Shown here: positions 2,886-13,921 of the stretch, piece after piece
Layout: the number at the start of each line of letters is the position of its first letter
How positions within the stretch are numbered: the first letter of the stretch is position 1
Assembly (NCBI GenBank): GCA_026627305.1
Contig: JAPNVD010000017.1
Coordinates: 1-32,557, forward strand
Length of the DNA stretch: 32,557 nt
Source of the DNA: Sulfolobaceae archaeon
Lineage (GTDB): Archaea; Thermoproteota; Thermoprotei_A; Sulfolobales; Sulfolobaceae
Direction: 5' to 3'
Translations under genes and position numbers: made by a program
Notes under the pieces: generated by a model
What the model saw: only the letters and a program-made list of their open reading frames with translations
What the model was told of the DNA's origin: nothing
The model's database searches: none

Positions 2886-3752
2886 TCAAGAAAATAAAAA
2901 CGTTAGTATCAATATGAAAGAGACCATTAAATAACTTATAGCTAGATTTCTAATTGCGGGTATAAACAATTTCGGCTTTTCATGGTATTTATAACCAGTC
3001 CTCACTGAAGAATAAATTAAAGGAGCTGTGATCAAGCCTATAAGACTAACTAAAGGAGCGATCTTAAGAAGAGAATTAATTATGAGAATTATCAACGATA
3101 ATGAGGCAAACATCGCATAGAATACTACAGCATTTTTTGTCCCAACCCTTACTGCTATATCTCTCTTACCGGATAAGAGGTCTTGATAATAGTCTGGAAT
3201 CTCGTTAGCTACTGCTATAGCAACTACAATAAATCCTGGAACTAAGGATACTAGAATTGGTGCTATTGATAAATGAAATGTCTGCAAATAGTAACTACCT
3301 AAAGTCATCAGGGGTCCGTAAGATAAGAAAATCGAAAGCTCACCTAAGCCTCTGAACGCTAGCCTTAATGGAGGTCCCACGTAAAATACTGCAAAAAATG
3401 TACCAGCTAGTACGATATATAAAATTATGAAACTGTAAAGTAAAGATAAATAAATGGCTAAAGATATGGCTATAACGAAAGAAGCAGTGCCTAAAATAAA
3501 TATTGAAATAGAGGGCTTTTTCTTCTCATCTAGCATAAAGACTCTATCTGCAGGATCGAAATATTCATTATAAGTCTCAACCCCTGTAACCATTAGCACT
3601 ATCCCTATTAATCCCAAGATAAATGTAAAGATGTTTACTTTGTGTTGTTGCCAATAAGATATTGAAAATCCTAAGAAATAGGGTATTAGACCAGCGAGAA
3701 GGAAGAATCTATACCTTACTGTAGTAATAAACCTCAAAAGCGGAGATGTCAA
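2886..3752 (-). CDS. UbiA-superfamily ring prenyltransferase (MenA-like)
   Basis: An integral membrane prenyltransferase of 288 residues with about eight or nine helices. Both Asp-rich prenyl-diphosphate/Mg sites are intact: ETYNEYFDPADR (about residues 58-69) and NEIPDYYQDLLSGKRDIAVR (about 184-203). The second, with NExPD and GKR, resembles 1,4-dihydroxy-2-naphthoate prenyltransferase (MenA) more than heme O or digeranylgeranylglyceryl-phosphate synthases. It would attach an isoprenoid chain to an aromatic or quinoid ring. The TTG start overlaps the TGA of the preceding radical SAM gene (TTGA), so translation is coupled. Sulfolobales use benzothiophene quinones (caldariellaquinone), so a role in quinone tailing is a reasonable inference, not shown by the sequence. 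Confidence 0.88.
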   Translation of the reverse strand: MTSPLLRFITTVRYRFFLLAGLIPYFLGFSISYWQQHKVNIFTFILGLIGIVLMVTGVETYNEYFDPADRVFMLDEKKKPSISIFILGTASFVIAISLAIYLSLLYSFIILYIVLAGTFFAVFYVGPPLRLAFRGLGELSIFLSYGPLMTLGSYYLQTFHLSIAPILVSLVPGFIVVAIAVANEIPDYYQDLLSGKRDIAVRVGTKNAVVFYAMFASLSLIILIINSLLKIAPLVSLIGLITAPLIYSSVRTGYKYHEKPKLFIPAIRNLAISYLMVSFILILTFLFS

Positions 3753-4702
3753 GACAAATCTAACTCCACTAGATCGTTTGCTTTAGCCAGGAGTTTAGGA
3801 TTGGACTTTACGCTCTCAACCCATTCTGCTACTTTTGGATGCTTCCACCCTTTTTTGTATCTTTCCCACATCTCTTCGAAACTATGTTTCCTGATATCAG
3901 CTACAACATAAGGTATAGAGCCTATAAGTTTCACTTTACCATGTGCTAAAACTAATGGACTGGCAGGAGGATGTCTATACATCACTTGCATCTCTTCAAT
4001 TATATCGAAGGGGTAATATAGTACCCTCATTTTACCTTCGTATTGCTTTGCTTTTCTCTCTAACATTTTTTTGTACTCTTCATACTCTTCGTCAGTTAAA
4101 CCTATGATATCCCAATAATCTACAGCTCTACCTAAATACATGGTCTTTCCTGTTTCAAAAACTTTTACACCTAGTTCAGCAGCAAAGTCTATCAATTTTT
4201 CAGCTTCATGGATGTTGAATTTTGCGGGAACAAATACTATTTCAACATTTGCTCCTTCTTCAATAAGGTACTTTATCGCATTTATTGTCTTTTCAAAACT
4301 AGCCCCAGGCCTCATCTTTGTGTAAGTTTCAGGCGTGTATCCATCAACGCTGATCTGTATTGATCTTAAGTCCAGTTCTGCTAGCCTTTTTGCTACGCTT
4401 TTACTTATTAATTGGCCGTTAGTCTCTATCTTGAGCTCCACATCATGAGACCTAATTATTTCAGCTACTTCCCAGAATGCTGGGTGTAGTAGTGGTTCTC
4501 CTCCTGATATTGCAACATATGGTACTGAGTGATCCACTAGAACTTTAGCAAAATTTATCGCTTCCTCTTTTGTTAGCTCTCCCGGAAAAGCTCCAGTAGG
4601 AGATGACTTCCATAGACAATGAATACATTCTAAATTACACCTATTAGTTATGTGCCATGCGATAAAAAGGGGAGAGTCAAGATTTTGAATATCAATTTGC
4701 AT
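3749..4702 (-). CDS. Radical SAM protein A (PqqE/SPASM-like architecture, no auxiliary cysteines)
   Basis: A radical SAM enzyme of about 317 residues. The CNLECIHC motif (CxxxCxxC) near residues 22-29 binds the 4Fe-4S cluster that cleaves S-adenosylmethionine, SGGEPLLHP is the SAM-binding GGEP motif, and ETNGQLIS follows on the next strand. The C-terminal segment G-x-V-K...IRKHSFEEMWERYKK has the shape of a SPASM tail (G-x-x-x...sl.eiW), but the three radical-SAM cysteines are the only ones in the protein, so no auxiliary cluster can be bound. A GTG at 4711 overlaps the PqqD stop; I prefer ATG 4702, preceded by AAGGAG. Its stop overlaps the UbiA start. It is likely one of three paralogous enzymes modifying the peptide at 7426-7518. 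Confidence 0.9.
   Translation of the reverse strand: MQIDIQNLDSPLFIAWHITNRCNLECIHCLWKSSPTGAFPGELTKEEAINFAKVLVDHSVPYVAISGGEPLLHPAFWEVAEIIRSHDVELKIETNGQLISKSVAKRLAELDLRSIQISVDGYTPETYTKMRPGASFEKTINAIKYLIEEGANVEIVFVPAKFNIHEAEKLIDFAAELGVKVFETGKTMYLGRAVDYWDIIGLTDEEYEEYKKMLERKAKQYEGKMRVLYYPFDIIEEMQVMYRHPPASPLVLAHGKVKLIGSIPYVVADIRKHSFEEMWERYKKGWKHPKVAEWVESVKSNPKLLAKANDLVELDLS
3823..3915. repeat. 93-base repeat shared by radical SAM genes A and C
   Basis: Matches 6483-6575 with two differences. It encodes the C-terminal VVADIRKHSFEEMWERYKKG region and ends abruptly on both sides, so the tail of one gene appears to have been copied onto the other. Confidence 0.9.
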
Positions 4703-4707
4703 ATTAT

Positions 4708-4974
4708 TCACTCCTTGAGAAGATCCATTTTCTTCAATTGATCTATAAATTCATAAACATCGTTTCTGATCTGCTCTTTTTCACCTTCATACTCATTGCT
4801 CAGTTCTTCAATTATTTGATCTATGCTTTTGCCCTCTTTTATCTTATTTATAATCTCCTTTCCTACCTGATTAGTGACAAACACTTTTTCAGTTTCCGTG
4901 TCAAAAACCACAACCCCGAATTTTTCATCCTTTAATTTTATCCTTCTCTTGAGCTCCAAATAGACAACACCCAA
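4708..4974 (-). CDS. PqqD-family peptide-recognition (RRE) protein
   Basis: An 88-residue PqqD-like protein: an N-terminal beta region in which FGVVVFDTETEKVFVTNQVG is the typical strand-strand-'lN.tg..i' signature, then helices with a GKSIDQIIEELSNEYEGEKE segment equivalent to the 'g.t..eiv..l...y' helix-turn-helix of PqqD. In PQQ, lasso-peptide and related pathways this domain binds the leader of the precursor peptide and presents it to the modifying enzyme. It lies between radical SAM genes, and its stop overlaps the next of them. The listed start is TTG; a second in-frame TTG 15 bases later (4959) would also give a complete domain. About 60 bases separate it from the gene before. Confidence 0.85.
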   Translation of the reverse strand: MGVVYLELKRRIKLKDEKFGVVVFDTETEKVFVTNQVGKEIINKIKEGKSIDQIIEELSNEYEGEKEQIRNDVYEFIDQLKKMDLLKE

Positions 4975-5036
4975 TAATTATATTTGGCTTAACATAATAA
5001 AAATTATCGCTAATTATAAGAAAAATCTGTTTAAAC

Positions 5037-5369
5037 TTATATATTTGACTTTTTTACTTTTCTTTTGCTCTTTTTATAAGGTCTACCTATTATATTTAAA
5101 GAATTCTTAATCATAATATAATCGCTTATCCTCGAAAGAGCCTCGTTTGGATCGCCTACACCCTTTAGTATTTCTGCTAGTCCTTTTTCATTAATATATT
5201 CAAGCCAAGCCACTATATGGCCCTCCTTTAAGTGCCATTCCACGCAGGCGGAATCTAATTTAGACAGTCTTTCAATTTCGTTCTTCAACTCCACGATATT
5301 ATGAGCTACGCCTACTACTCTGTCATAACTTTTGAAGTAGAAGGGCTCCATGGTTTTACTCTTTATCAA
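5037..5369 (-). CDS. Small conserved-looking protein in radical SAM cluster (possibly DUF5752-like)
   Basis: A 110-residue soluble protein. The body (about 8-85) contains PFYFKSYDRVVGVAHNIVEL, then a Glu/Lys helix, a CVEWHLKEGHIVAWLEYI segment and LAEILKGVGDPNEALSRI. This order (FYF, helix, S/V-x-x-H-x-x-x-G-x-x-x-x-W, LA) resembles what I recall of the DUF5752 family, whose function is unknown to me. The tail (about 90-110) is strongly basic. It sits 23 bases after radical SAM gene B and before PqqD, so it probably belongs to the pathway as an accessory factor. An internal Met at residue 7 is an alternative start closer to the conserved PFYF. Confidence 0.7.
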   Translation of the reverse strand: MIKSKTMEPFYFKSYDRVVGVAHNIVELKNEIERLSKLDSACVEWHLKEGHIVAWLEYINEKGLAEILKGVGDPNEALSRISDYIMIKNSLNIIGRPYKKSKRKVKKSNI

Positions 5370-5392
5370 CTATACTATAAAAATAGGAGGTC

Positions 5393-6349
5393 TTATTCTA
5401 TAGATAATGGTATGAACTCAATAGATTTAGCTAATAACCTATAATCCTTTATAGCACTATTTATAAAGTCGATGACCTGTGGATGTCTCCAGGCCTTCTT
5501 ATATCTCTCCCATAATGTCTTAAGATCGTCCTTTCTTACATTTCCTATTACAAAGGGAAGGGAATTAGCTAACCTAATGTAGCCATTAGCTGTGACTATC
5601 GGAGCAGGGGTTGGATGTTGAAGTGTATATGCTAATTCTTCAGCAGGGGAAAGTTTAGAGTAAATTATCCTCATTTTGCCCTGATATTCTTTTTCCTTTT
5701 TCTCCAGAATTTCTATATATTTAGCTATTTGTTCTTCTGTAGGATTAACAATGCTCCAATTTAAAGCAGCTCTTCCCATATAGATTGGTCTTGCAGTATA
5801 AAGTGTTCTTACTCCTAACGAAGCCAATAAATCTATGAGCTTTCCTGTTTCCTCTATATTGAATTTAGTGGGTACGAATACTACTTCAACGTTAACTCCG
5901 TACTCCACTAAATTCTTAATGGCTTCTATTACCTTCTCATAACTACCTCGCACTCTCATTTTTTCATATGTCTCCTTTGAGGCTCCATCAAAGCTGACCT
6001 GAACAGCCTTGAAGTCAAGTTCTGCTAGCCTTTTTGCTACGCTTTTACTTATTAGTTGGCCATTAGTCTCTATCTTGAGCTCTACATCATGGGATCTAAG
6101 AAGTTCCACAAGTTTCCAGAATGCTGGGTGTAGTAGTGGTTCTCCTCCTGATAGTGTTACATATAGTACTTGGTGGTCTACTAACTCTTTACCAAACTTT
6201 AGAACCTCATCAACACTCAACTCATCAGGATAAGGTTCGTGAGAAGCCCAAAGGCAATGGATGCATTCTAAATTACACCTATTAGTTAACTGCCATATCA
6301 TATAAAGAGGATATTCTAAATCTTCGTATGTAATAGAGTTAAGCTCCAT
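5393..6349 (-). CDS. Radical SAM protein B (paralogue, no auxiliary cysteines)
   Basis: A 318-residue paralogue of the other two radical SAM proteins of the cluster. It has CNLECIHC at 25-32, SGGEPLLHP near 68, and ETNGQLISKSVAKRLAEL on the following strand. The C-terminal region (GYIRLANSLPFVIGNVRKD then LKTLWERYKKAWRHP) is SPASM-shaped but contains no cysteine, so only the SAM-cleaving cluster is expected. This copy differs most from the others in the C-terminal third, which suggests a different regiospecificity or a different step. It starts 59 bases after protein C and is followed by the 110-residue protein. A 126-base stretch of its DNA is identical to the corresponding part of protein C. 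Confidence 0.9.
   Translation of the reverse strand: MELNSITYEDLEYPLYMIWQLTNRCNLECIHCLWASHEPYPDELSVDEVLKFGKELVDHQVLYVTLSGGEPLLHPAFWKLVELLRSHDVELKIETNGQLISKSVAKRLAELDFKAVQVSFDGASKETYEKMRVRGSYEKVIEAIKNLVEYGVNVEVVFVPTKFNIEETGKLIDLLASLGVRTLYTARPIYMGRAALNWSIVNPTEEQIAKYIEILEKKEKEYQGKMRIIYSKLSPAEELAYTLQHPTPAPIVTANGYIRLANSLPFVIGNVRKDDLKTLWERYKKAWRHPQVIDFINSAIKDYRLLAKSIEFIPLSIE
6109..6234. repeat. 126-base perfect direct repeat, copy in radical SAM gene B
   Basis: Identical base for base to 7125-7250 in gene C, although the genes are clearly diverged on either side (differences begin at once on both flanks). It covers the coding for the N-terminal helix, the GGEP strand and HPAFWKL. The sharp borders point to gene conversion between paralogues. 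Confidence 0.95.
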
Positions 6350-6408
6350 AATATCTCTTTTGACTTACAAGTTAATAAAAATCGCTTTTGAGAGATTTTG
6401 AGTTATCC

Positions 6409-7380
6409 TTAAAGGTCTGGAAGTTCTATCTGTAGTTCTGCCTTAGAAATAGCCCTGGGATTTAATGAAACCTCCTTAACGTATTCTGCTACTTTTGGAT
6501 GCTTCCATCCTTTCTTGTATCTTTCCCACATCTCTTCGAAACTATGTTTCCTGATATCAGCTACAACATAAGGTACTGAGTTTATCAGCTTTACCTTGCC
6601 GTTAGCAGTTATTATAGGATTTCCCGTGGGATGTTTAAATTTGATCTGTAATTCCTCTACAATATCTCGTGGATGAAAATAGAGTCTCATTTTGCCTTCG
6701 TATTGTTTTGCTTTTTCATCAATTATGTTTTTTAAATATTCGTATTCTTTTTCGTTAAGACCTAATAGGTTCCAATATTTAACCGCTCTTCCCATATAGT
6801 AAACTTTGCCCGAATAGAACGCTCTCACTCCTAAACCTGCTACCATATCAATCAGTTTCTCGACCTCACTAAGGCTAAATTTAGATGGTACGTACAGTAC
6901 TTCAGTTCTAACACCGTATTCATTTAGATATCTCAGCGCATCTAATGCCTTAGACAGTGAGGCATTGGGCCTCATTCTGCTATAAGTTTCTTGTGAGGCG
7001 CCATCAATACTTATCTGTACAGAACGTGGGTTCAAATCAGCTATTCTTTTCGCTACGCTTTTACTTATTAGTTGGCCATTAGTCTCTATTTTTACATCTA
7101 CTCCTCCTGAGGAAAGTAGATCCGCAAGTTTCCAGAATGCTGGGTGTAGTAGTGGTTCTCCTCCTGATAGTGTTACATATAGTACTTGGTGGTCTACTAA
7201 CTCTTTACCAAACTTTAGAACCTCATCAACACTCAACTCATCAGGATAAGTCGCATTTGGTCCAGATTCCCACAAACAGTGGATGCATTCTAAATTACAC
7301 CTATTAGTTAACTGCCATCCAATGTATATAGGAGAAGATAATTGCTCATAACTTATACTTTCTAAACTTTCTTCTTCCAT
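6409..7380 (-). CDS. Radical SAM protein C (paralogue, first enzyme after the peptide gene)
   Basis: A 323-residue radical SAM protein with CNLECIHC at 28-35, SGGEPLLHP and ETNGQLISKSVAKRIADL. The C-terminal ADIRKHSFEEMWERYKKGW is nearly identical to that of protein A. As in its two paralogues, no cysteine occurs outside the CxxxCxxC motif. It is the enzyme gene nearest the 30-residue peptide, whose stop codon lies 45 bases upstream, a typical place for the enzyme acting on a RiPP precursor. No strong Shine-Dalgarno is visible before ATG 7380; a T-rich stretch lies just upstream. Annotation pipelines often call such proteins 'coenzyme PQQ synthesis protein'; the product need not be PQQ. Confidence 0.9.
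   Translation of the reverse strand: MEEESLESISYEQLSSPIYIGWQLTNRCNLECIHCLWESGPNATYPDELSVDEVLKFGKELVDHQVLYVTLSGGEPLLHPAFWKLADLLSSGGVDVKIETNGQLISKSVAKRIADLNPRSVQISIDGASQETYSRMRPNASLSKALDALRYLNEYGVRTEVLYVPSKFSLSEVEKLIDMVAGLGVRAFYSGKVYYMGRAVKYWNLLGLNEKEYEYLKNIIDEKAKQYEGKMRLYFHPRDIVEELQIKFKHPTGNPIITANGKVKLINSVPYVVADIRKHSFEEMWERYKKGWKHPKVAEYVKEVSLNPRAISKAELQIELPDL
6483..6575. repeat. 93-base repeat, copy in radical SAM gene C
   Basis: Partner of 3823-3915 in gene A, two differences over 93 bases. Confidence 0.9.
7125..7250. repeat. 126-base perfect direct repeat, copy in radical SAM gene C
   Basis: Partner of 6109-6234. The central part (about 38 bases around the GGEP codons) is also shared with gene A near 4470-4510. 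Confidence 0.95.
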
Positions 7381-7382
7381 AA

Positions 7383-7416
7383 TAGAAATAAAAGAATAAG
7401 AAAAAATAAAAAACTT
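7383..7416 (-). terminator. T-rich tract between peptide gene and first radical SAM gene
   Basis: Read on the minus strand this is an almost unbroken T-rich run (TTTTTTATTTTTTCTTATTC and more) starting about 10 bases after the peptide stop. Archaeal RNA polymerase often terminates at such runs without a hairpin. Partial termination here would make the peptide mRNA more abundant than the enzyme mRNA, as is usual for precursor peptides. Confidence 0.5.
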
Positions 7417-7425
7417 CCTTAAAGC

Positions 7426-7518
7426 TCACGTAAATCTTATGAAGGGCTGCGCCATAACTCTGTCAGTAACTTCACTTAAAACAGGTTTCTCCCACTTCTT
7501 CTTCTCAGCCATTTGCAT
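7426..7518 (-). CDS. Putative RiPP precursor peptide with W-x-x-P-x-L leader motif
   Basis: A 30-codon frame beginning MQMAEKKKWEKP, continuing VLSEVTDRVMAQPFIRFT and ending TGA; a second ATG two codons in gives 28 residues. An in-frame stop lies just upstream, so it is not the tail of a longer gene. The KKKWEKPVL segment fits the [Y/W]-x-x-P-x-L motif by which lasso-peptide leaders are bound by PqqD-type domains, and it recalls the start of PqqA (W-x-K/A-P...SE). The likely core is the last 7 to 10 residues (around AQPFIRFT). It has no Tyr, Cys or Glu-x-x-x-Tyr pair, so it cannot be a normal PqqA. A TATA-like box at 7544-7552 is about 26-30 bases before the start, making it the first gene of the leftward cluster. 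Confidence 0.7.
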   Translation of the reverse strand: MQMAEKKKWEKPVLSEVTDRVMAQPFIRFT

Positions 7519-7543: not shown

Positions 7544-7552
7544 ATTAAAAAT
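7544..7552 (-). promoter_or_regulatory. TATA-like box for peptide/radical SAM cluster
   Basis: On the minus strand reads ATTTTTAAT, preceded by a purine-rich GAAA (BRE-like), about 29 bases before the first ATG of the peptide gene. This fits a leaderless Sulfolobales promoter placed between ctaB and the peptide. Confidence 0.45.
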
Positions 7553-7597: not shown

Positions 7598-8470
7598 TTA
7601 CTTTAGAACTTCTGCAATTATAATGACTAAAAACACTATTGCTAGATAGATGTTAGTTAATTTGAATAAACTGAATGCAGATTCCTTAGTAAGCTTTCTT
7701 GTCATATTCAATGAGTATCCTAAAAGGATTAAGCTAAGGGCAATTAACAATATTAAGTATATAAGAGGCATGGATAAATAATAGTATAAAAGCCATGAAA
7801 TTATAAACATTGTGACAGTAAACACATTAATTATGATCGCTACTTTCCTCTCAGAAACCACAACAGGTAACATCGGCACATGTGCCCTGACATAATCATC
7901 TTTATACTTTATTGCAATGCTCCATATATGTATAGGAGTCCATAGAATTATCAACATGTAGAGTAGAAAAGGCTGGATCGCAAAGGGCTTATTAGTTACT
8001 GCAGACCACACTACAAATACTGGAGCCCCGCCTGCAAAGGAGCCTATTACGATATTCCAAGCTGTGACTCTCTTAGTAAGATAATTATAAAGGATTGGGT
8101 CAAATAAAACGCCTACCAAGATCCACAACGTGGAGTATATTGAGAAAATATCAGCAAGTGCGCAAGAGAGAGCTATAAGCGCTATTCCAAAGTACAATGC
8201 CTTAATAGGTGGGTATATTCGACCAGAAGGCAAGGGTCTCTTTTTAGTTCTATCCATTATGCTATCTATATCCTTATCTATATAGTTTGTAACGGAGTTT
8301 ATTCCTGAAGCTGCTATATACGTTATAAGAGTTGCAGCAAGTATCTTCCACAAATCAGTCCTGCTAAAAGCCAAAAAGCCTCCAGCTAATCCCCCTAAGG
8401 CAAGGAGTGCACTTACTGCGGGTTTAGTGAGCTCAAAATAAGCCTTAGCGCTTAGATTTAAACTGCTCAT
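7598..8470 (-). CDS. ctaB: Protoheme IX farnesyltransferase (heme O synthase)
   Basis: A 290-residue UbiA-superfamily membrane enzyme that attaches a farnesyl-type chain to heme b, making heme O, the precursor of the A-type hemes of terminal oxidases. Diagnostic motifs are NYIDKDIDSIMDRTKKRPLP (first Asp-rich site, about residues 61-80, with the KRPLPSG ending typical of CtaB) and IKYKDDYVRAHVPMLPVV (second site, about 187-204). About eight or nine hydrophobic helices alternate with these loops. It is on the same strand as the radical SAM cluster and ends 79 bases before the peptide start. Sulfolobus oxidases use heme A-type groups and caldariellaquinol, so ctaB near a second UbiA enzyme is suggestive of respiratory cofactor synthesis. 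Confidence 0.93.
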   Translation of the reverse strand: MSSLNLSAKAYFELTKPAVSALLALGGLAGGFLAFSRTDLWKILAATLITYIAASGINSVTNYIDKDIDSIMDRTKKRPLPSGRIYPPIKALYFGIALIALSCALADIFSIYSTLWILVGVLFDPILYNYLTKRVTAWNIVIGSFAGGAPVFVVWSAVTNKPFAIQPFLLYMLIILWTPIHIWSIAIKYKDDYVRAHVPMLPVVVSERKVAIIINVFTVTMFIISWLLYYYLSMPLIYLILLIALSLILLGYSLNMTRKLTKESAFSLFKLTNIYLAIVFLVIIIAEVLK

Positions 8471-11356: not shown

Positions 11357-13921
11357 ATGAATAATGAACTTAAGATTACAACAGACCTAGACGAGAATTT
11401 AAAGTTGGAACAAGAAGAAGTAATAGCTTCAAAGGGGAAAATAGTAGTAAAGAAAAATGGTAAAATAATAAAGGAGATAACCAATGTAGAGAAATTAAAG
11501 ATAGATAGGAACATAGGTATAAGCAAACTTATTGCAATAACAGAAGATGGTAAGGAAATAGATGTAGCATATTTTACAAAGGCAAAAGAGGAAGATTTCA
11601 TTAAGTTCGCTGAAGCTTATAATAATAACATATTTGATATCTCACCTGAAGGTGAAAAGGAGAGAGAAATAAAGGGAAACGTTGGAACGTTAAAGTGGTT
11701 ATGGGGATTAGTTAAACCCTATAGAAAGACGCTAATTCTAGGGACTATACTCTCGTTTTCTGCTACCGCCTTTAGTCTTGTCCCACCATACCTTTTAAAG
11801 ATACTTATAGATAGTGTATTGCTCAATAATTCGCATCCTATAAGGCTATTTGAGGAGATAATAACGTTATTAGTTATGTCATATTCTTTTCAATCCTTGT
11901 TCTCCTCATTACAAAGTAGGGTGTTAAACAATTTAGGTTCTAGGATTGTGAACGATCTAAGGCATAAGCTTTATACACATGCAGTAAAATTAGATCCTTC
12001 ATTAATCGAGAGGATTTCTCCGAGTAGGATTCTATCAAGGTTGACAACGGATGCAGGAAACACAAACTGGTTATTAGTGTGGGGTATGCCCACGCTCATA
12101 AATAACCTATTCATATTAGTGGGTATAGGTGTGATTTTATTCACGTTAAACGTAACTTTAGCTACTTACATCCTAATACCCATACCTATAATTTTAGGAC
12201 TTATAATATACTATAGGAAAAAATCTCATAGGCTTTACCACAGAAATTGGAGAAGAAGTGCAGACATAACTTCAGCCATAAATGATACAATACCCAACTA
12301 TTTTGTAATAAAGTCTTTCGTTAAGGAAAAAGAGGAGAGCGATAGATTACATAATTTATTGAATAAACTATACGAGTCAAACTATTCAATAAACGTACTT
12401 AACAGCACTATTTGGCCATTAGTAGGTTTTGTATTAACAATGTCCACTGTAATGATTTGGTGGGTTGGAGGATTAGAGGAAATGAAGGGCATCATAGAGT
12501 TAGGTGTAATTACTGCGTTCATTTCCTATGCTTCTCAGTTTTACGGACCCATAGGTAACCTAAGCAATACTATACCTTTCATACAGCAGTCTATAACCTC
12601 AGCGGAGAGAATAAGAGAGGTTTTAGATACTAAGCCAACGATCTATAGTCCTCCTAACGCGAAGAAGCCTGAAATGCCAGCTGAGATAGTCTTTGATCAT
12701 GTCTATTTCGGTTACGATCCTCATTTCCCAGTGGCGAAAGATGTTAGCTTTACAATAAAGCCAGGTCAAAGGGTTGCTATCGTGGGTAAGAGCGGCTCAG
12801 GGAAAACAACTATAGCTAAGCTTCTCCTGAGGTTCTATGATGTAAATGAGGGAAAGATAACTATTGGAGGCGTAGATATCAGGCAGATAGATCTTGATTA
12901 TCTCAGGCAGAAAATAGCTTATGTCCCTCAGGATGTGATACTCTTCGATACGACTGTAGGATTCAACGTAGCCTATGGTAACCCGAATGCCACACCGAAG
13001 GACGTGATTAAGGCTTGTAAAATAGCACAAATACACGATGAAATAGTTAAGTTACCTTTAGCCTATGATACTGTGTTAGGTGAAAGAGGATCTTATTTAT
13101 CGGGAGGTCAAAGACAGAGGTTAAGCATAGCAAGAGCTATAATAAAGGATCCTGCCGTTATCGTCTTCGATGAGGCAACTTCAAACTTAGATGTAATGAG
13201 TGAAAGGGAGGTTTACAAAACTATTATGAACCTCTCTAAAGGGAAGACTGTAATTCTGGTTACACACAACGTTCATGAGGTCATGAACTCAGACAAAGTC
13301 ATCGTAATGAAAAACGGAGTTATTGTTGAGGAAGGAAGTCCTAAAGAGCTACTAAATAAGAAAGGAGAATTTTACAACATGTTTAGGGAACAGATAAACG
13401 AAGAGGGATTAGGCAATATAAATATAGAAGAGGATGTAAAAATCAAGGATACTATTGTCACTAACTTATCTAAAATAAAGGTTATGAAATCAGAACTAAA
13501 GAGCAAAGTAAACGTGATTATTGATGGGAAGCTCTATACCGATTTAACACCAAAACTATTGTTCCCGATTTCTAGTCCTAAAGTAGTTGGGTTCTATGAT
13601 GAAGATATGAACGAAGTTGCTATAATTGAGGATTATACTAAGCTTGATGAGAGTTCTAAAAAAGCATTAGAGGAGGTGATCTCGTATAACAATCTAATAT
13701 TTAAGGTAAAGAGGATAAAGGACATTAAAGTAAAGGGCGATCATTTAGAGTGGGTTCTAGATACTGATAGAGGAAATACTGTTGCCTATACCTATAGTAG
13801 AAGGAGTATTATAATACTTGACGGTAAGGTGGCAATTGTTGATAAATATGATAATATATATCAAATAGACGTAAAGTCGTTAGATTCGAGGAGTTATAAG
13901 CTACTTTATGAGACAATATGA
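11357..13921 (+). CDS. ABC exporter with extra N-terminal and DUF1854-like C-terminal domains
   Basis: A fused ABC half-transporter of 854 residues, about 250 longer than the usual MsbA type. Order: a beta-rich N-terminal domain (1-95) with no membrane segment; six helices of an ABC transmembrane domain (about 115-410); a nucleotide-binding domain with Walker A GKSGSGKTT (about 476), Q-loop YVPQD, signature YLSGGQRQR (about 578), Walker B VIVFDEAT (about 600) and H-loop VTHNVHE; and a C-terminal domain (about 700-854) with LFPISSP...VGFYDEDMNEVAII, WVLDTDRGNTV and LDSRSYKLL, which fits DUF1854. The architecture recalls bacterial exporters linked to cyanophycin metabolism. It probably works as a homodimer exporting a lipid, peptide or drug. 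Single gene with its own AT-rich promoter. Confidence 0.9.
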   Translation: MNNELKITTDLDENLKLEQEEVIASKGKIVVKKNGKIIKEITNVEKLKIDRNIGISKLIAITEDGKEIDVAYFTKAKEEDFIKFAEAYNNNIFDISPEGEKEREIKGNVGTLKWLWGLVKPYRKTLILGTILSFSATAFSLVPPYLLKILIDSVLLNNSHPIRLFEEIITLLVMSYSFQSLFSSLQSRVLNNLGSRIVNDLRHKLYTHAVKLDPSLIERISPSRILSRLTTDAGNTNWLLVWGMPTLINNLFILVGIGVILFTLNVTLATYILIPIPIILGLIIYYRKKSHRLYHRNWRRSADITSAINDTIPNYFVIKSFVKEKEESDRLHNLLNKLYESNYSINVLNSTIWPLVGFVLTMSTVMIWWVGGLEEMKGIIELGVITAFISYASQFYGPIGNLSNTIPFIQQSITSAERIREVLDTKPTIYSPPNAKKPEMPAEIVFDHVYFGYDPHFPVAKDVSFTIKPGQRVAIVGKSGSGKTTIAKLLLRFYDVNEGKITIGGVDIRQIDLDYLRQKIAYVPQDVILFDTTVGFNVAYGNPNATPKDVIKACKIAQIHDEIVKLPLAYDTVLGERGSYLSGGQRQRLSIARAIIKDPAVIVFDEATSNLDVMSEREVYKTIMNLSKGKTVILVTHNVHEVMNSDKVIVMKNGVIVEEGSPKELLNKKGEFYNMFREQINEEGLGNINIEEDVKIKDTIVTNLSKIKVMKSELKSKVNVIIDGKLYTDLTPKLLFPISSPKVVGFYDEDMNEVAIIEDYTKLDESSKKALEEVISYNNLIFKVKRIKDIKVKGDHLEWVLDTDRGNTVAYTYSRRSIIILDGKVAIVDKYDNIYQIDVKSLDSRSYKLLYETI

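Follow-up and report, generated by a model that had tools for sequence, protein, structure and literature searches.

The window considered here is the whole 32,557-nucleotide stretch at positions 1 to 32,557 (forward strand) of contig JAPNVD010000017.1, in the assembly GCA_026627305.1 of a Sulfolobaceae archaeon. Between its heme O synthase and aldose 1-epimerase genes lie seven leftward genes on the minus strand, which probably hold the core of a pathway for a ribosomally synthesised and post-translationally modified peptide (RiPP), namely a precursor peptide, a PqqD-like RiPP recognition element (RRE) and three radical S-adenosylmethionine (SAM) enzymes, here called rSAM1, rSAM2 and rSAM3. 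A sequence-only reading of the same DNA had proposed this gene set and its leftward order; all seven genes were confirmed at the positions given there by the open reading frame (ORF) map and by Pfam scores over the cut-offs (Radical_SAM 29.5, PqqD 23.4 and UbiA 34.2 bits). The features of the locus are as follows.

7598 to 8470: heme O synthase gene, bordering the cluster
7546 to 7551, minus strand: TTTTTA, resembling a TATA promoter element, 33 bases upstream of the peptide start (ATG at 7518)
7426 to 7518, minus strand: putative RiPP precursor peptide, 30 codons from the ATG at 7518, stop codon included in the span
6409 to 7380, minus strand: rSAM1 (PF04055, 95.8 bits), with CxxxCxxC and three cysteines in total
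5393 to 6349, minus strand: rSAM2 (PF04055, 105.9 bits), three cysteines in total, modelled fold nearest to RiPP maturases
5037 to 5369, minus strand: 110-residue protein, likely 104 residues from the ATG at 5351, no Pfam match over cut-off
4708 to 4974, minus strand: PqqD-like protein, predicted discrete RRE (PF05402, 59.9 bits)
3749 to 4711, minus strand: rSAM3 (PF04055, 97.5 bits), likely start at the ATG at 4702, three cysteines in total
2886 to 3752, minus strand: UbiA-family prenyltransferase, MenA/UBIAD1-like (PF01040, 69 bits)
2082 to 2870: aldose 1-epimerase gene, bordering the cluster

The PqqD-like gene, rSAM3 and the UbiA gene are translationally coupled. Stop and start codons overlap as GTGA between the PqqD-like gene and rSAM3 and as TTGA between rSAM3 and the UbiA gene, as the sequence-only reading had noted for these last two junctions. 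A better start for rSAM3 is the ATG at 4702, with AAGGAG eight bases before it, within the end of the PqqD-like gene, and the coupling is retained with this start. The hexamer TTTTTA is not present upstream of rSAM3 or the UbiA gene. It occurs at -29 to -33 of seven starts, those of the peptide, rSAM1, rSAM2, the 110-residue protein (ATG 5351), the PqqD-like protein, the epimerase and the heme O synthase, two of which (7518, taken over 7512 with its spacing of -39, and 5351) were picked with this spacing in mind. By way of background, 0.7-0.8% of all positions, and 12 of the 512 ATGs on the minus strand, have TTTTTA at -34 to -28; among plus-strand genes it is missing before 8814 and stands at -34 and -40 before 11357. 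Spacing of this kind between TTTTTA and the start is typical of leaderless archaeal transcripts. Scanning the window with Rfam gave no match.

KKKWEKPVL is the leader motif of the peptide, whose C-terminal half contains neither cysteine nor tyrosine and terminates in PFIRFT. The WEKPVL segment fits the published W/Y/LxxP motif of RREs and, together with a promoter element at the spacing of its neighbours, suggests that the peptide gene is probably real. The motif exceeds what chance would give: when the 217-base gap holding the peptide gene was shuffled 20,000 times with dinucleotides preserved, 395 shuffles had an ORF carrying [WYF]xxPx[LIVM], 126 a 20-80-codon ORF carrying [WY]xxPx[LIV] and 11 this motif preceded by Lys/Arg. 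The W/Y/LxxP motif is described, in PMC12710340, as bound by many RRE groups (FusE, McjB, PqqD and StsC), with lasso, PQQ and sactipeptide (StsA) systems represented; in StsA, where the motif is WVKP, double-alanine changes at W-V or K-P abolish retention by the RRE StsC. The only NCBIfam match of the peptide, below cut-off, was to a lasso precursor model at residues 4-12 (E 0.29, 10.9 of 27 bits), and searches of PDB, Pfam and PHROGs gave no match.

The PqqD-like protein is closest among PDB sequences to the lasso RREs TbiB1 (E 0.0011) and TfuB1 (E 0.0019). Its model, made from a three-row alignment (pLDDT 82.3), has the beta3-alpha3 order of a winged helix, with strands at residues 12-17, 20-25 and 30-34 and helices at 36-46, 51-61 and 66-82, an arrangement that with the PF05402 match would place the protein among the RREs. 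The model aligns to 5v1v with a TM of 0.82, and the seven Foldseek matches at E <= 0.001 were five TbiB1 chains, TfuB1 and PqqD, the TbiB1 and TfuB1 chains all coming from leader-peptide-bound entries. With a leader motif in the peptide and an RRE fold in its presumed partner, both sides of the binding pair point the same way, and the PqqD-like protein may be taken, by analogy, to bind the peptide leader. A second, lone PqqD-like gene is found on contig 34 of the same genome (locus L134, 14224-14505), beside an apparent OB-fold gene of the single-strand-binding kind; within the 17 kb of that locus, no radical SAM gene lies closer than one at about 9.5 kb that looks methylthiotransferase-like.

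The three radical SAM proteins share 52-58% pairwise identity. Tracts of identical DNA reach 126 bases between rSAM1 and rSAM2, 61 between rSAM1 and rSAM3 and 38 between rSAM2 and rSAM3, and identity in 60-base blocks among the three genes varies from 35% to 100%. Such patches of exact identity within otherwise diverged genes suggest tandem paralogues that exchange sequence, apparently by gene conversion. The core CxxxCxxC motif is present in all three proteins and supplies their only cysteines. None of the three has a cysteine at the six conserved C-terminal columns expected to hold auxiliary clusters; in an alignment of 43 sequences (the trio plus 40 taken among 45 listed of 74 relatives), four of these columns are filled with cysteine in 36-39 sequences and the other two in 26-27. 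The rSAM2 model (pLDDT 93.7) has SkfB, SuiB and PqqE as its first seven Foldseek chains, a predicted fold which, like the CxxxCxxC core, resembles that of the RiPP maturases, the fold having been examined in rSAM2 only. MftC, though under cut-off, is the top NCBIfam model for all three proteins, and the closest plasmid match is also an MftC, 39% identical to rSAM2 residues 9-207 (63% of rSAM2); among plasmids, 456 records match rSAM2, none of them at 60% or more. From their sequences and the rSAM2 model, the trio resemble maturases that function with no auxiliary cluster. Contig 4 of the same genome (locus L135, 1265-7519) carries four further clustered radical SAM genes, one over the cut-off of TIGR04053, two Ahb/NirJ-like below cut-off and one B12-binding by look.

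The prenyltransferase belongs to the UbiA superfamily, having a PF01040 match and retaining the acidic motifs NEYFDPAD and NEIPDYYQD. In NCBIfam it matches MenA types best, without reaching any cut-off, and among PDB sequences UBIAD1 (8djk, E 2.7e-5) alone matches at E <= 0.1. The description 'MenA-like' given in the sequence-only reading thus holds for the nearest subfamily and fails for MenA proper, TIGR00751 scoring 81.1 of the 102.15 bits required. This genome has six PF01040 matches compared with two to four in each of the 30 other genomes of the family. Contig 15 bears two further MenA-like UbiA genes (locus L136, 3826-5148 and 5424-6230), one of which is extended by about 130 residues at its N terminus.

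These parts suggest the following route, in which leader binding, modification, release and prenylation are all inferred. The 30-residue peptide would be translated, and W-E-K-P-V-L in its leader would join the PqqD-like RRE as a further beta strand, the RRE then passing the peptide to the radical SAM enzymes. The three paralogues, with cysteines for the SAM-binding 4Fe-4S cluster only, would successively abstract hydrogen on the C-terminal half (TDRVMAQPFIRFT), and the modified piece would be freed by a protease not encoded next to the cluster. The prenyltransferase, if it is in the pathway, would add an isoprenoid chain and so place the product in the membrane. Presentation of a short peptide by a PqqD-like protein to radical SAM enzymes had already been proposed in the sequence-only reading, and the motif in the leader now supports it together with the predicted folds of the RRE and of a maturase (rSAM2). 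The translational coupling to rSAM3 suggests a role for the UbiA enzyme in the pathway; an action on the peptide product itself is a tentative proposal, toward which we lean slightly less than away. The MenA-like enzyme, the nearby heme O synthase and the precedents of PQQ and mycofactocin suggest, by analogy, a possible redox role for the product. Still more specific, and in our view quite unlikely, is that the trio would cut the peptide to an aromatic or crosslinked core which is then prenylated to a membrane-soluble redox cofactor, a peptide-derived quinone. A three-residue cyclophane at the Phe-Ile-Arg of the peptide is speculation.

Several known systems resemble this gene set in part. 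The streptosactin system shares with it a short precursor (StsA) with W-x-K-P in the leader and a discrete PqqD-like RRE (StsC), as given in PMC12710340, StsB being the radical SAM maturase; here, however, there are three radical SAM genes without auxiliary-cluster cysteines, the StsB model scores at most 96.5 of 625 bits and the peptide is Cys-free. PQQ biosynthesis likewise has a small peptide (PqqA), a PqqD-type protein and a radical SAM enzyme (PqqE), and PqqD and PqqE are among the best fold matches, but the Tyr-free peptide offers no counterpart to the reacting Glu/Tyr pair of PqqA (residues as named in PMC10906245), and both the PqqE model (57.4-90.5 of 381.35 bits) and the PqqD model (39.5 of 46) stay under cut-off. 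Mycofactocin (MftA, MftB and MftC) has a redox cofactor as its known product and provides the top NCBIfam model for the trio; unlike its precursor, the peptide ends in FIRFT and lacks the invariant Cys-Gly-Val-Tyr (PMC3023750), and MftC (116-145 of 265 bits) and MftB (23 of 33) are below cut-off. The lasso RREs (TbiB1, TfuB1 and PadeB1) are closest in RRE sequence and fold and recognise a YxxPxL leader (PMC10368454) comparable to the WxxPxL found here, but neither a cyclase nor a B2 protease was found with Pfam among the 30 proteins of the window (peptide included), to which that search was confined. MenA and UBIAD1 form the closest UbiA subfamily, with the acidic motifs kept; in contrast to MenA, the protein falls under all listed MenA cut-offs and its first motif begins with NE and is one residue shorter than the usual NDxxDxxxD.

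Some observations weigh against a RiPP-type assignment. No homologue of the peptide was found in any of the 30 other family genomes (31 searched, E up to 10). The pattern [WY]xxPx[LIV] occurs in four of the 259 small ORFs of the window, the peptide among these four; with a basic residue before it, it occurs in one of 259. These patterns, and those counted in the shuffles of the gap, were defined post hoc, once the peptide had been seen. Every NCBIfam maturase model listed for the trio scores below its cut-off. Coupling is limited to the PqqD-like gene, rSAM3 and the UbiA gene, the remaining genes appearing to be separately transcribed. Pfam searches of the window proteins found no protease, exporter or other RiPP marker adjacent to the cluster. 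Finally, the lone PqqD-like protein elsewhere in the genome means that an RRE fold alone is no proof of a RiPP role. As a separate observation, an ABC exporter of 854 residues with a C-terminal DUF1854 is encoded at 11357-13921 of the window, on the opposite strand and about 3.8 kb from the peptide gene, with no evidence of a link.

If the peptide ORF were accidental, the trio would act on a small molecule (a tetrapyrrole, a nucleotide or another) and the PqqD-like protein would be a protein-interaction domain. AhbD, NirJ and viperin models do match the trio, a heme O synthase gene adjoins the cluster and a lone PqqD-like protein exists elsewhere, all of which such a pathway could accommodate. 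The AhbD model, however, scores 93.1-113.5 of 500 bits with the trio and the viperin model 61.4 of 180 with rSAM3; PADLOC viperin models match the trio up to 73.8 bits, and the NCBIfam viperin cut-off is not reached. Three other radical SAM proteins of the genome reach 237-266 bits with the best Ahb model, likewise under cut-offs, and the genome thus has better candidates for heme synthesis than the trio. Since the peptide's WxxP motif, the promoter spacing of its gene and an RRE fold nearest to leader-binding RREs also speak against it, we regard a small-molecule pathway as unlikely. A closer alternative keeps the RRE-guided radical SAM pathway and assigns the UbiA enzyme to another (quinone or lipid) pathway sharing the transcript, the product being an unprenylated peptide. 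It agrees with the many UbiA paralogues (six PF01040 matches, with two more MenA-like genes elsewhere in the genome), and the phrase 'UbiA prenyltransferase' was not met among the literature matches listed; against it, the UbiA gene overlaps rSAM3 (TTGA) without a TTTTTA of its own, and no other gene of the cluster explains a prenyltransferase there. An unprenylated product seems a serious though somewhat unlikely outcome.

The cluster could also be imagined to make the head group of the benzothiophene quinones of Sulfolobales (caldariellaquinone), with UbiA as the quinone prenyltransferase. A MenA/UBIAD1-like enzyme and a heme O synthase neighbour would suit this role, and the biosynthesis of the quinone is described as uncharacterised in PMC13386864. 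The quinone is, however, described as a Sulfolobales trait (PMC11707229), whereas a single one of the 31 family genomes has the peptide and close relatives of the radical SAM and PqqD proteins, the UbiA protein having 29-31% identical relatives in three others, and the other 30 family genomes each carry two to four UbiA matches of their own. The cluster-free genomes G199 and G213 are, we take it, those of Metallosphaera sedula and Sulfolobus acidocaldarius, both named as quinone makers in the literature. Tyrosine was reportedly identified as a precursor of the quinone by Zhou and White in 1989, and the peptide here is Tyr-free. Disfavoured by both distribution and composition of the peptide, a role in caldariellaquinone biosynthesis is most improbable. 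An RRE-guided radical SAM pathway acting on the 30-residue peptide remains the reading we prefer.

The sequence-only reading had expected the gene order to be conserved in Sulfolobales, an expectation that was not borne out, the set occurring in one of 31 family genomes. No similar gene set was found in 229 genomes of the class, in 398 sampled genomes of the phylum or in a pattern-limited scan of 84,980 species, and no relative with these three radical SAM genes was found in the genomes searched. At E <= 1e-40, rSAM1 matched one of the 398 phylum genomes, its own. At E <= 1e-30, rSAM2 matched 99 of the 229 class genomes, the best outside its own being 38% identical over residues 11-213 and none of those listed exceeding 39%. 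Matches to rSAM3 at E <= 1e-3 were found in all 31 family genomes, the best outside its own at 38%, that is, distant members of a common protein class. The PqqD-like protein occurs in four of 229 class genomes (28-40% identity in the other three) and the UbiA protein in four of 31 family genomes. The scan of 84,980 species used two peptide patterns, which bound its reach, and it may have omitted records of this genome. Out of 87 stretches it confirmed 45 loci, with identities of 22-32% except in one segment of 20 residues that reached 70%. None of these 45 genome-contig loci had a UbiA relative (E <= 0.01), and two had a PqqD relative (L080 and L081, at identical positions). With the radical SAM alignment, viral contigs yielded nine distant loci; with UbiA they yielded none, and plasmids gave no PqqD match at 1e-5. 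The genome itself is 79.5% complete.

Recent horizontal transfer or contamination is ruled against by the composition of the contig, whose tetranucleotide profile correlates at r 0.58-0.78 with ten stretches of its own genome and at 0.17-0.54 with eight stretches of other genomes. That of the cluster (r 0.54) is ordinary for its length, 19 of 43 own pieces being as low or lower. Two genes of the contig point the other way: triose-phosphate isomerase (459-1136 of the window) is 55-57% identical to another family of the order (f11) and 43-47% to its own in the rows listed, and the heme O synthase is 35-39% identical to those of the 12 other family genomes passing 1e-40.

The 110-residue protein, counted as a pathway member in the sequence-only reading, is rejected as such, being present in all 31 family genomes (up to three matches per genome) compared with one for the cluster, and having variable neighbours. 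It also occurs in 44 of 229 class genomes, and most family matches begin at query residues 2-7, in agreement with a start at the ATG at 5351. Enlarged loci from other families had a radical SAM gene in one of 13 cases, in opposite orientation. Given its presence throughout the family, this gene is probably a resident surrounded by the cluster, a passenger.

Most RRE-guided radical SAM pathways known to us come from bacteria. For Archaea, the literature consulted offered a single case, mycofactocin on a Haloterrigena plasmid (PMC3023750). No archaeal cluster with the present gene set was described in the literature searched, which consisted of titles and the starts of abstracts, subscription papers being mostly outside it. 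The isoprenoid quinone pathways known to us all begin with chorismate or with free aromatic amino acids, and a peptide-derived quinone, if true, would therefore be a lipid electron carrier of a new origin. The mechanism proposed for the trio and its RRE is likely, and the product is worth isolating, the same set being in no relative searched. For a family of thermoacidophile type, a trio free of auxiliary cysteines and a coupled prenyltransferase make a short and concrete list of parts for expression, and the cluster could reveal how radical SAM enzymes lacking auxiliary clusters alter peptides, and whether a lipid can arise from a ribosomal peptide.

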